The position numbers and the translations under genes were made by a program. This document shows positions 46,058-58,184 of a stretch of 64,000 nt of DNA, piece after piece. The stretch lies in the NCBI RefSeq assembly GCF_000016125.1, contig NC_009135.1, positions 930,001 through 994,000 of the forward strand. The letters run 5' to 3'. Position 1 is the stretch's first letter, and each line of letters begins with the position of its first letter. This DNA comes from Methanococcus maripaludis C5 (GTDB lineage Archaea; AGJL01; Methanococci; Methanococcales; Methanococcaceae). The notes beneath the pieces are model-generated. The model saw nothing but the letters and a program-made list of their open reading frames with translations, had not been told where the DNA came from and made no database searches.

Positions 46058-46750
46058 TTAGTTTCCTTTCCAAATTCCAACCATCATCATGTGATCTTTT
46101 TCGAAAGGTTCTATGTTTACTTCATCAACAATTTCAAATCCGCCTTCAATCAGTATTTTTTTCTGCTCAGCAAATATTTCTCTTGGATTTTTTGTAACGT
46201 CGACACTTCTTGCTTTTATAGATATCATAGCATACCCATTTTCTTTTAAAAACCATTTTGCATTTTTTACAAGGATTTCTGCCTGATTTGGCTGTGCAAC
46301 ATCTTCAAAAATAACGTCAACTTTTTCAACGATGTTTGAATAGTCTTGAGGTCTATTTGCGTCCCCTAAAACAGGAATTAAATTTTTCCTTTCGTTGCAT
46401 GAATCAATAAATTCTCTCATGATTCTTGGCGCAAACTCGAGAGCATAAACGAGTGAATTTTCTGCGATATCTGCAACGTGTGATGGCGTAGTTCCGGCAG
46501 ACGCTCCAAGGTAGAGAACTTTTGTTCCTTTTTTGATCGGCATCTTTTTTAAGCCGTTTATAATTGCGGCCCCGAGTTTACTCTTATTTGGATTCCATAC
46601 TCGATATTCAATATTATCAGAATATACTAATTTTTCACCGTAAACTCTTTTTCCAGGAATTAATGATTTTGTAGCGATCCTTTTAAGTCCGTCTCCAAAA
46701 TCTACTGAATATACGTTGTTAAAAATTTCTTTTACCTTAATTTTTTCCAT
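46058..46750 (-). CDS. flpA: Fibrillarin, box C/D methyltransferase
   Basis: 230 aa. SAM-binding VLYLGASAGTTPSHVADI and conserved VYALEFAPR, VDVIFEDVAQPNQAEIL. Catalytic subunit that 2'-O-methylates RNA in the C/D sRNP. GGTGAGTTAAATG start, 17 bases after the nop5 stop, forming a nop5-flpA operon. Confidence 0.95.
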   Translation of the reverse strand: MEKIKVKEIFNNVYSVDFGDGLKRIATKSLIPGKRVYGEKLVYSDNIEYRVWNPNKSKLGAAIINGLKKMPIKKGTKVLYLGASAGTTPSHVADIAENSLVYALEFAPRIMREFIDSCNERKNLIPVLGDANRPQDYSNIVEKVDVIFEDVAQPNQAEILVKNAKWFLKENGYAMISIKARSVDVTKNPREIFAEQKKILIEGGFEIVDEVNIEPFEKDHMMMVGIWKGN

Positions 46751-46767
46751 TTAACTCACCATAGGGA

Positions 46768-48210
46768 TTAATTCTGTGAAGAAGTTTTTCCGATTACTTT
46801 TCTTTCAGCTTTAACTTTTTTTGTTGAATCTCTTCTTTTTTCGCCAGATCTTTCCTTTGGAGGCTGATTTCCACTACCTTTTGGTTTTCCGCCAAATGGT
46901 TTCTTATCGCCTTTTCTGTTGTCCCTTCTGTCGTCTTTTCCAGCAGGTTTTTTACCAAACGGCTTTCCACCTTTTTTAGAGTCGCCTTGTTTACCTTGTG
47001 GTTTACCACGTGGTTTTCTGTCACCCTGTGATCCCCTATCCCTATCTTGACCGCATTTATTACCAAAACTTCTCGTATCAGGTCTTGGTCTTCTTTTTCT
47101 CATTGGTTCAGGGAATTTTTCTTTTATTTCAGCTACTTTTTTGTTCATGTCTTCAATTAACATGTCTGAAATATCATTTCCAAAAGCATCTGCCCTTATC
47201 GCAATAGAGATTTTACATGAAATTGCCCTTGCAATCTTTCCGTGCAACCACCATGGGCTTCCTTGAATGAGGGGGTGCTGGAATATTACACCGTGTTTTG
47301 GAGGTAATGCCCTTTCCCTTAAGTGTGCAAATAATGCTTTTTCTGCACCTATAACTTGTATCGTTGATGCAGGGAGTCTTAAAAGTCTTTCAATTCCACC
47401 TGCAAGACTTATCAATCTTGCACCAAGTGACGCACCTGCAACTTTTGTTAAGTTTGGAGCAACCTCGTTCATTGAAGTCTCCAAATATTCTTGCAATCTT
47501 TCTCGGTATTCATACATACTTTTTATTTCATTTGCAAGGTTTTTCATGATATCCAAATCAAATTCAGATACATCTGCACCCATTGAGTCTTTTGCAGCAA
47601 GTGAGATAGTTCTTGCCACATTTGAAGGCATTGTTTTTTTGAGTTTTGTTCTCGTGTACTCTTCTCTATCCCCGTATTCGGAAACTAAACCCACATAAAT
47701 ATCGTGTTTCTTAACAATATTGTCCATTTCAGGGAAGTAAAGTGAATACCATTCCCTAAGCCTTTCTGAAAATAGATTTAGAGTTTCATCAAGGTTATCA
47801 AGAGCATTTACTGTTTGAACTATCAATTTATCTTTCTGTTCTGATGACTTTTTCATCATTGATTTTGTGAAAGATGTTGCCCAAGCGTTCATTTTTGAAA
47901 CAAAATCAGCTTCATCTGTATAGACTTCGTATTTTTGACCTAATTTGTATAAATTATCTCGAATAAGTTCTCCGGCAGGATTTTTGGAACTTGAATATTC
48001 AAAACTAATGCTTTCTTCCCCAATTTCCCATTCGTTTTTCAATTCATCGATTATTTCAAAATTTCCCTGTCTCAATTCATACATTATTTTTGGAATATCC
48101 TCGTTTTCAAATATTTTATAATATTTGATGTCGTCTAATGAATATTCACCGTTTTTCGAGTTCGCTTCAAGTGCAAATGCTCCATATGGTGCAAAGGCAA
48201 TGAATAACAT
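46768..48210 (-). CDS. nop5: Nop5/Nop56-related box C/D RNP protein
   Basis: 480 aa. N-terminal domain, coiled coil and Nop domain (GASLGARLISLAGG, QVIGAEKALFAHLRERALPPKHGVIFQHP). Scaffold linking L7Ae-bound sRNA to fibrillarin. The last ~110 residues (371-480) are a low-complexity basic Gly/Lys/Arg/Pro/Asp tail beginning RKRRPRPDTR, longer than most archaeal Nop5 tails and reminiscent of eukaryotic nucleolar proteins. AGGTGATTTTATG start. Confidence 0.94.
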   Translation of the reverse strand: MLFIAFAPYGAFALEANSKNGEYSLDDIKYYKIFENEDIPKIMYELRQGNFEIIDELKNEWEIGEESISFEYSSSKNPAGELIRDNLYKLGQKYEVYTDEADFVSKMNAWATSFTKSMMKKSSEQKDKLIVQTVNALDNLDETLNLFSERLREWYSLYFPEMDNIVKKHDIYVGLVSEYGDREEYTRTKLKKTMPSNVARTISLAAKDSMGADVSEFDLDIMKNLANEIKSMYEYRERLQEYLETSMNEVAPNLTKVAGASLGARLISLAGGIERLLRLPASTIQVIGAEKALFAHLRERALPPKHGVIFQHPLIQGSPWWLHGKIARAISCKISIAIRADAFGNDISDMLIEDMNKKVAEIKEKFPEPMRKRRPRPDTRSFGNKCGQDRDRGSQGDRKPRGKPQGKQGDSKKGGKPFGKKPAGKDDRRDNRKGDKKPFGGKPKGSGNQPPKERSGEKRRDSTKKVKAERKVIGKTSSQN

Positions 48211-52737: not shown

Positions 52738-54270
52738 TTATTTTACTATTTTTCCAGTTATGGATCTTCTCCCATAGCCAGTTACTCTTATATCAACAAA
52801 TTTTCCAATTTCAACGTTTTTTTCTGCAATTCCAATTAATATTGGGTAGCTTCCAAACTGCCTTCCAAAATAAAGATCATTTTTCTCTTTAACTTCAACT
52901 AACACGTTTTTTAATATCGTTTCTGTTGGAAGCATTCTTTTTAACATTGGATTATCTATTTCAGTTCTTATTTTTTCTTTGAACTTCAAAAATAGATTTT
53001 TTCGTTTTTTTGCTTTTTCAACATCCTTAACTGTTAAATCGGTTCCAAAAAATGGAACTACTTGTCTTATATTTATCCTTCGAAGCATATTTCCTGAATC
53101 ATATATCTCATTTAAATAATCGTAATTTATCTCAAAGGTGTCATTTGATTCTCCTTTTAATCCGGAAAGTAAATTTATCCCTGGAAGAAGATATGGCATT
53201 CCATTTTCCCCCCTTTTTCCACCAATTTCATTTAAAATACCAACTGCTTTTAAAACATCTTCAGGTTCAGTTAAAAGGCAGTTTTTTGAAATAACTTTTT
53301 CATCGAAACTTTCAACCCCAAAAGCTGCAACGTTTCCAGGAGTACAGTATCTTACAAGTATTTTTGCAATTTCTCGCCCCTCTTTTTCATGTCTTGCAAT
53401 AACTGAAGGGTTTGCGTTGTCGATATGCAAAACATCCGGATTTGAAACTGAAGTTATTCCTTTAAAGAGTTTTTCTATCTCCAAAACATTTGGAACTGGA
53501 ACGTCTGTTGTTTCCACATCTTTTGCAAGGTATGAAAACATGCAGGGCTGTCTTCCAATTCTAAAGTATTTAATCCCATATTCATAGAGATTTCTTACTT
53601 CTTCGATTATATCTCTCGAATTTCTAAATTTTGGAGAACCATAACGTCTTGGTTCCGTACAAAAACTGCATCCACCACTAAAAGCCCTTGCACATCCACG
53701 GTACGTCTCAATTTCTGCAATGATATTTGGATAGTTTGGATGAAGTTTTACAATTTTTGCACCAATTCTCGCAAATTCATCAAGTTCATTGTAAGTTCTA
53801 AGCCTTGTTCCATCCACTTTTTCAGCGTTAAAATTGTTTTTTAAAAGATTGTGCAAAACAGCATCTAAATCACCTTCAGAAATCACGTCAAAGAAATATT
53901 TCAAATTCGATTCATCTTTTATTTTTCCGCCTTCAAGGGATGAACCAAATTTGGTTGCAACGGGGCCACCAAGAATCTTTAAACCTTTAAAATTATACAA
54001 AATCGATACAAATTCCCTCAATGTTGCAGGATTTGCATTTAAGTACTTTCCAGGGGTGTGAAATCCACATATTGCAATTACGGCATCATATCTATTGAAA
54101 TCGTATCCTTTTTTAAGTTCTTCTCTTAATTTATCAATTGTAATGTAATCTACATCGTGTTTAAACTTGTAAAGAACTCCTGCAGCATATCTAGGATACA
54201 TTCCAATGTAAGGGTGAACTCCAAGTCCTGCCGGCTCATCAGTATATCCATCAAGAATTAAAAATTTCAT
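52738..54270 (-). CDS. Radical SAM protein with TRAM-like domain
   Basis: 510 aa. N-terminal B12-binding-like domain, radical SAM core with an unusual cluster motif C193-X7-C201-X2-C204 (family usual is CX3CX2C), and a C-terminal TRAM-like beta barrel (RVTGYGRRSITGKIVK). Related to arCOG radical SAM proteins without known substrate; TRAM suggests an RNA substrate. GGGGTTATCATG start. Confidence 0.82.
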   Translation of the reverse strand: MKFLILDGYTDEPAGLGVHPYIGMYPRYAAGVLYKFKHDVDYITIDKLREELKKGYDFNRYDAVIAICGFHTPGKYLNANPATLREFVSILYNFKGLKILGGPVATKFGSSLEGGKIKDESNLKYFFDVISEGDLDAVLHNLLKNNFNAEKVDGTRLRTYNELDEFARIGAKIVKLHPNYPNIIAEIETYRGCARAFSGGCSFCTEPRRYGSPKFRNSRDIIEEVRNLYEYGIKYFRIGRQPCMFSYLAKDVETTDVPVPNVLEIEKLFKGITSVSNPDVLHIDNANPSVIARHEKEGREIAKILVRYCTPGNVAAFGVESFDEKVISKNCLLTEPEDVLKAVGILNEIGGKRGENGMPYLLPGINLLSGLKGESNDTFEINYDYLNEIYDSGNMLRRINIRQVVPFFGTDLTVKDVEKAKKRKNLFLKFKEKIRTEIDNPMLKRMLPTETILKNVLVEVKEKNDLYFGRQFGSYPILIGIAEKNVEIGKFVDIRVTGYGRRSITGKIVK

Positions 54271-54361
54271 GATAACCCCTAAAAAAATTGAGATTTGGTT
54301 TATAATGCATATGTTTAAATTAGATATATAAAAGATGTTTAAAAAATTCTTTTTTGAGTCT

Positions 54362-54441
54362 TTCAGTCGGTGATGAAAATAACCAGCTCTGAATTAAACT
54401 CAGGTTTAATAATGAAGAACCGTATGAGCTCTGAGACTGAA
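54362..54441 (+). ncRNA. Box C/D guide sRNA (candidate)
   Basis: Terminal stem TTCAGTC 54362-54368 with GACTGAA 54435-54441 (7 bp). Box C GTGATGA 54370-54376, D' CTGA 54389-54392, C' ATGAAGA 54412-54418 (one mismatch), D CTGA 54431-54434. Guides are 12 nt each (54377-54388 and 54419-54430). The D'-C' spacer is a perfect hairpin ATTAAAC-TCAG-GTTTAAT. TATA-like TATATAAA at 54325-54332. The D guide predicts agctCatacggt as target, matching a CAU anticodon loop (C34). Confidence 0.85.
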
Positions 54442-54516
54442 TAACTTTTATTTTTTAATTTTTTAAAAACAGTTATTTTTTATTAACCTTAAAAATTAAA
54501 AATTTAAATATACTGG
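54442..54516. other. T-rich stretch after the C/D sRNA
   Basis: Runs of T (for example 54451-54467) suit termination of the sRNA. The promoter of the next small gene must also lie here; a TATA-like AATTTAAATA is at 54501-54510. Confidence 0.35.
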
Positions 54517-58115: not shown

Positions 58116-58184
58116 AACGGATGATGATGAAAAGAGGGTTATCTGATTTTTTGGTGATGATATCTTCCATAAGCTGAATCTGTT
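58116..58184 (+). ncRNA. Box C/D guide sRNA (candidate)
   Basis: Terminal stem AACGGAT 58116-58122 with ATCTGTT 58178-58184 (7 bp with one G-U). Box C ATGATGA 58124-58130, D' CTGA 58143-58146, C' GTGATGA 58154-58160, D CTGA 58174-58177. Guides are 12 and 13 nt; spacer 7 nt. A TATA box (TTTATATA 58089-58096) lies ~25 nt before the stem, and a T-run follows at 58185-58190. Predicted targets ataaCcctcttt (D') and cttaUggaagata (D), with the methylated base capitalised; location unknown. It sits in the 402-base gap before valS. Confidence 0.87.

Follow-up and report, generated by a model that had tools for sequence, protein, structure and literature searches.

Architecture of the sRNA locus

The window analysed here, a stretch of 64,000 nucleotides from Methanococcus maripaludis C5, carries a complete archaeal C/D box sRNA at positions 54362-54441 of the plus strand, with the boxes C, D', C' and D in this order. 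The original prediction had named exactly these coordinates. Both guides have the canonical archaeal length of 12 nt, and the terminal stem of 7 bp, expected to form the k-turn, is supported by changes on both of its sides between genomes. The features of the locus are listed below in window positions:

52738..54270 (-): radical SAM protein gene (PF04055), the divergent left neighbour, which marks the conserved locus
54324..54333 (+): putative TATA box ATATATAAAA, ~37 nt upstream of the terminal stem; presumed promoter
54362..54441 (+): C/D box sRNA as a whole, with all boxes, two 12-nt guides and the terminal stem
54362..54368 (+): 5' arm of the terminal stem, uucaguc, pairing with 54435-54441
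54370..54376 (+): box C, GUGAUGA; RUGAUGA is kept in 34 orthologues
54377..54388 (+): D' guide AAAUAACCAGCU, predicted to address GGCUGGUUAU in the tRNA-Met D loop, with N+5 at G18
54389..54392 (+): box D', CUGA, read from the sequence
54393..54410 (+): D'-C' hairpin AUUAAAC-UCAG-GUUUAAU with a 7 bp stem and a UCAG loop, read from the sequence
54412..54418 (+): box C', AUGAAGA, read from the sequence
54419..54430 (+): D guide ACCGUAUGAGCU; predicted target GGCUCAUA/CGG (slash, exon/intron junction) in elongator pre-tRNA-Met, N+5 at C34
54431..54434 (+): box D, CUGA, read from the sequence
54435..54441 (+): 3' arm of the terminal stem, gacugaa, with paired changes between genomes
54446..54464 (+): oligo-T stretches, a likely transcription terminator judging from the sequence

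Owing to the TATA-like sequence upstream and the oligo-T stretches downstream, the sRNA looks like an independently transcribed unit. The upstream stretch AAATTAGATATATAAAAGATG is identical in the alignment of the genomes G000-G002, the only three for which this alignment was used, G003 being placed there in the wrong orientation.

The genes for fibrillarin (PF01269) and Nop5 (PF01798, PF21667) adjoin one another in the same window (46058-48210, minus strand), and two C/D sRNA genes are located no more than ~12 kb from the pair. The second of these sRNAs occupies 58118-58183 of the plus strand, with its boxes at 58124-58177. Its D' guide AAAGAGGGTTAT forms 11 Watson-Crick pairs with the 23S rRNA of G000 (ATAACCCTCTT); its order-wide relatives have nearly the same D' guide and a different D guide (ACTTACCCGA).

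The D guide and the elongator pre-tRNA-Met

The 36 tRNA genes found by a tRNA model in the target genome (G000, 1.79 Mb) include that of the elongator tRNA-Met (G000:C1:18404-18518, minus strand, L026), which is 115 nt long, has the anticodon CAU and is interrupted between positions 37 and 38 by an intron of 40 nt (GCUCGGCUCAUA/CGGAAAUUCC, slash at the junction). This pre-tRNA-Met contains GGCUCAUACGG, complementary to the D guide, and the N+5 position, expected in an archaeal C/D sRNA to fall on a plausible site, coincides exactly with C34. The duplex comprises 11 contiguous pairs (10 Watson-Crick and one G-U). Alignment of the guide with all 36 tRNA genes, as had been proposed, gave the intron-containing elongator pre-tRNA-Met as the best partner, the runner-up reaching 8 pairs. 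The original assignment of the D guide to C34 of elongator tRNA-Met is thereby supported, although not to the last letter: its full 12-nt target agctCatacggt occurs in no tRNA, as guide position 1 forms a G-U pair and position 12 a mismatch. The most informative point was absent from that prediction, namely that the target straddles the 5' exon/intron junction and the last three pairs of the duplex lie in the intron.

In the spliced tRNA-Met, the initiator tRNA-Met (L013, L014) and the other CAU tRNA (L006, assigned to tRNA-Ile2 by sequence), the target is reduced to GGCUCAUA, giving 8 pairs. RNAduplex calculated -18.9 kcal/mol for the pre-tRNA-Met vs -10.2 kcal/mol for each of these three. 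Shuffled D guides equalled the observed score against the tRNAs of the genome in ~0.7% of trials, and shuffled D and D' guides both matched one and the same tRNA at the observed scores with a frequency of ~4e-6, these shuffles preserving base composition only.

Genome-wide searches for complements of the guide yielded, apart from the sRNA itself, mostly chance matches, at or below the level of the reversed control. Two candidate targets were rejected: the one-mismatch match L032 is not a tRNA, and the match in L024 (tRNA-Ser) lies on the opposite strand. It might be argued that the D guide has its conserved function on another RNA, an rRNA or an mRNA, the match to tRNA-Met being secondary, given a site of 9 pairs including one G-U in 16S rRNA, the best rRNA site, and a one-mismatch genomic match at G000:C1:1203879. 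This seems very improbable to us, since pre-tRNA-Met offers the best match, with 10-12 pairs, in every genome and the N+5 position falls on the wobble base every time.

Conservation in the Methanococcales

The phylum-level search, which took in Methanococcales genomes, detected the sRNA in 34 of 36 of them. None of the 27 near-complete genomes lacks it, and the two in which it was missing have completeness values of 81% and 54%. The count of 34 was obtained with a pattern free of guide position 1 and of the D box. Such a degree of conservation makes chance untenable as an explanation of the sRNA and its D guide. All 34 orthologues possess the four boxes and a 12-nt D guide, the boxes of G006 and G022, which are outside the spacing limits of the script, having been read by eye. 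Box C' conforms to RUGANGA in 33 of the 34 (RUGAUGA in most relatives) and is AUGUUGA in G030. The D'-C' loop, 18-46 nt long in Methanococcus and G033, measures 3-11 nt in most relatives, and both strands of the D'-C' stem have changed in G003 without loss of the stem. In 26/34 genomes, drawn from both families and from each of the five genera represented, the sRNA adjoins the same radical SAM gene.

Guide positions 2-11 form 10 Watson-Crick pairs with the genome's own pre-tRNA-Met in 34/34 cases, as against 7 with the spliced form; these ten invariant pairs include the three with the intron, and positions 1 and 12 vary. Counted over the whole guide, pairing extends over 10 to 12 positions on the precursor vs 7 to 8 on the spliced tRNA. 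N+5 coincides with C34 in all 34 sRNA-bearing genomes, and GGCUCAUACGG is present in each genome's own pre-tRNA-Met (35/35). Furthermore, the pattern TATGAGCYCTGA, which stops before guide positions 9-11, matched 28 of the 36 genomes, and all 28 sRNAs found with it carry CCG at these positions.

In a pattern scan of the genome collection, matches came from Methanococcales records, one 'archaeon' record and one contig of a Lachnospiraceae MAG. The last (L190, JAEEGT010000165.1, 1828-1849, minus strand) agrees exactly with the C'-D guide-D pattern and is possibly a contaminant or a chance match.

Predicted intron pairing and the splicing fold

Because the CGG of the intron has no counterpart in the spliced, initiator and Ile2 tRNAs, it separates the three CAU tRNAs. 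A D-guide duplex reaching three pairs into the intron points to the unspliced precursor as the substrate, which implies that Cm34 would be placed ahead of splicing. According to the minimum-energy fold of pre-tRNA-Met, CUCA (32-35) is paired with the 3'-terminal UGGG of the intron, and the 5' bulge of the splice motif consists of UAC. C34 is thus predicted to be base-paired in the splicing fold, so that guide binding and this fold should be mutually exclusive. The GG of the intron is also held in the splicing helix (GGA/UCC), so conservation on the tRNA side alone is no proof of guide pairing; the CCG, however, is conserved in the sRNA itself, where the splicing helix does not apply as an alternative.

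The same sRNA could also produce Cm34 with its intron pairs being incidental, the sRNP acting on any CAU tRNA that contains GGCUCAUA. Seven Watson-Crick pairs and one G-U do persist on all three CAU tRNAs and, according to PMC7668247, mass spectrometry detected Cm34 in the initiator tRNA-Met of M. maripaludis. This report is the main tension with our assignment, as the D guide fits the initiator poorly; if Cm34 is truly present there, it would have to come from an sRNP for which 8 pairs suffice or by some other route. Nevertheless, the guide CCG opposite the intron is invariant in 34/34 sRNAs while the adjacent position 12 varies, and 8.7 kcal/mol are lost from the duplex without the intron. 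Moreover, C34 of M. maripaludis tRNA-Ile2 carries agmatidine, as stated in the same paper (PMC7668247), so that methylation would be unexpected in that tRNA. An sRNP indifferent to the intron therefore appears improbable, and an intron-dependent D guide is the reading followed below.

The D' guide

Among the tRNAs, the D' guide has its best site in the elongator tRNA-Met, at GGCUGGUUAU of the D loop, with N+5 at G18 and 10 contiguous pairs (9 Watson-Crick and one G-U), compared with 9 pairs on tRNA-Ile2 and 8 at the best 23S site. Both guides are thus complementary to the same tRNA-Met in G000, as the original prediction had surmised; the proposal is supported by sequence there and does not extend to the order, since the 12-nt D' guide is identical in G000-G003 only, four M. 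maripaludis-like genomes. In the voltae-like group G004-G006, whose AU-rich D'-C' loop has a length of at least ~40 nt, the D' guide reads ATTAAGCTAC (G004, G005) or a one-base variant of it (G006; L091, L092, L093), and ATTAAGCTAC fits GTAGCTTAGT in the tRNA-Lys of G000 with 10 pairs and N+5 at C11. Most Methanocaldococcus genomes have the D' guide GATTGGCTTTG (L144, L145, L147, L150, L155 and others), which fits a 23S site of G000 with a score of 10.5. With the D' guide differing between lineages and the D guide constant, the latter is the fixed part of the molecule and the former has been reassigned.

In M. maripaludis-like species the D' guide is probably a Gm18 guide for tRNA-Met, an assignment less certain than that of the D guide as its support comes from four genomes of a single lineage. 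Only slightly short of an even chance is the alternative, compatible with our explanation of the D guide, that D' is an orphan or a 23S guide and only the D guide matters. It is consistent with the divergence of D' outside G000-G003 towards guides that fit tRNA-Lys or 23S rRNA, with the 23S site of 8 Watson-Crick pairs (AGCUGGUUCCC) and with the D' box of G003, which reads CCGA. D-loop sequences are, in addition, common to tRNAs, which makes a match of 8-9 pairs less telling, and the text of PMC7668247 makes no mention of a Gm18 in M. maripaludis. On the other side, tRNA-Met is the top-scoring tRNA with its 10 pairs, a score equalled by shuffled D' guides in 0.6-1% of trials, and all 12 nt are shared by four genomes despite differences in their D'-C' loops and stems.

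Relation to known guide RNAs

No match was obtained in the window with Rfam at its gathering cut-offs; under relaxed limits, nearly all sense-strand matches over the element were C/D RNAs below their cut-offs. The sR-tMet of Haloferax volcanii (RF02163), reportedly described by Joardar et al. in 2011, is likewise a C/D RNA that guides Cm34 of elongator tRNA-Met while the precursor still has its intron, but the window RNA reaches only 15.5 bits against this family (cut-off 50, E 2.7) and is not a member of it by sequence. The window RNA also falls below the cut-off of RF01133 (sR3), with 28.9 vs 41 bits. When 201 bases were searched, the orthologue in G010 exceeded that cut-off with 53.3 bits, and whole-genome scans with RF01133 placed one of the 36 genomes above it. 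Between the sR3 D guide ACCGUUGGAGC and the window's ACCGUAUGAGC, the anticodon letters are the sole difference. From its guide we infer that RF01133 is the RNA of the tRNA-Trp intron; such an RNA is the intron itself, whereas the window RNA is a free-standing gene. Guides for tRNA-Trp and tRNA-Met may both read an exon/intron junction starting with CGG, and the resemblance to the sR3 guide may stem from similar targets instead of a shared origin. Those second matches to RF01133 that were read were rejected as relatives of the tRNA-Trp intron RNA, representing a different conserved C/D sRNA, and a search with the tRNA-Trp junction pattern returned one non-tRNA site only and did not locate the tRNA-Trp gene.

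The G010 orthologue (AATCGCC-AATGATGACGATTGGCTTTGCTGAGTCTGTGATGAACCGTATGAGCACTGA-GGCGATT) appears to resemble sR8 of Methanocaldococcus jannaschii, the standard in vitro model of C/D RNPs. Its D' guide and D'-C' hairpin are unlike those of the window RNA; if it is sR8, the window RNA would be the counterpart in Methanococcus, orthologous to a well-studied RNA.

In Haloferax, C/D-guided formation of Cm34 on the intron-containing elongator pre-tRNA-Met has been established (PMC5372725, PMC4033218). Pyrococcus has C/D sRNAs for position 34 of tRNA-Met, tRNA-Leu and tRNA-Trp (PMC7994747), which as Nm34 guides address the same class of tRNAs. In tRNA-directed sRNAs one guide acts on the tRNA and the other is without a target (PMC7994747), so that a double-guide RNA acting on one tRNA would be uncommon. 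For tRNA-Gln(UUG) of Sulfolobus acidocaldarius, PMC7668247 gives Um34 and Gm18 as predicted to be C/D-guided, thus positions 34 and 18 of one tRNA as here, in a different tRNA. The human SNORD97/SCARNA97 guide Cm34 of elongator tRNA-Met (PMC6601510); these, however, are eukaryotic, encoded in mRNA introns and unrelated in sequence. Finally, seven C/D sRNAs of M. maripaludis C5 were found by RNA-seq, as stated in PMC4644070, and the window RNA may be among them.

Proposed mechanism and implications

The sRNA would assemble with L7Ae, Nop5 and fibrillarin into a 2'-O-methyltransferase RNP. Pairing with the elongator pre-tRNA-Met on both sides of the 5' exon/intron junction (GGCUCAUA/CGG), its D guide would direct Cm34 before splicing. 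The three intron pairs would complete the conserved ten-pair duplex and, since the exon part of the target is common to the three CAU tRNAs, the intron would work as an identity tag restricting Cm34 to the elongator precursor. The D' guide of M. maripaludis-like species would probably direct Gm18 of tRNA-Met as well. We assign this account as a whole a probability of about 0.88. A more far-reaching version, which we regard as unlikely, would have a single RNA gripping the pre-tRNA at both the D loop (G18) and the junction (C34), opening the splicing fold, methylating both positions and forcing methylation to precede splicing; the intron would then be kept as the sole discriminator of elongator, initiator and Ile2 tRNAs, with C34 of Ile2 left for agmatidine.

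The finding opposes the published view, as given in PMC7668247, that guide-directed 2'-O-methylation is improbable in M. maripaludis. Haloferax already provides the case of a C/D RNA that acts on pre-tRNA-Met with its intron in place; what is new here, and supported by the sequence comparisons, is an order-wide Methanococcales guide with a clear prediction of intron dependence. The implied order of events is methylation, then splicing. M. maripaludis is genetically tractable, and the guide suggests a concrete, testable reason for the retention of an archaeal tRNA intron: without the CGG, it would be unable to distinguish the three CAU tRNAs.
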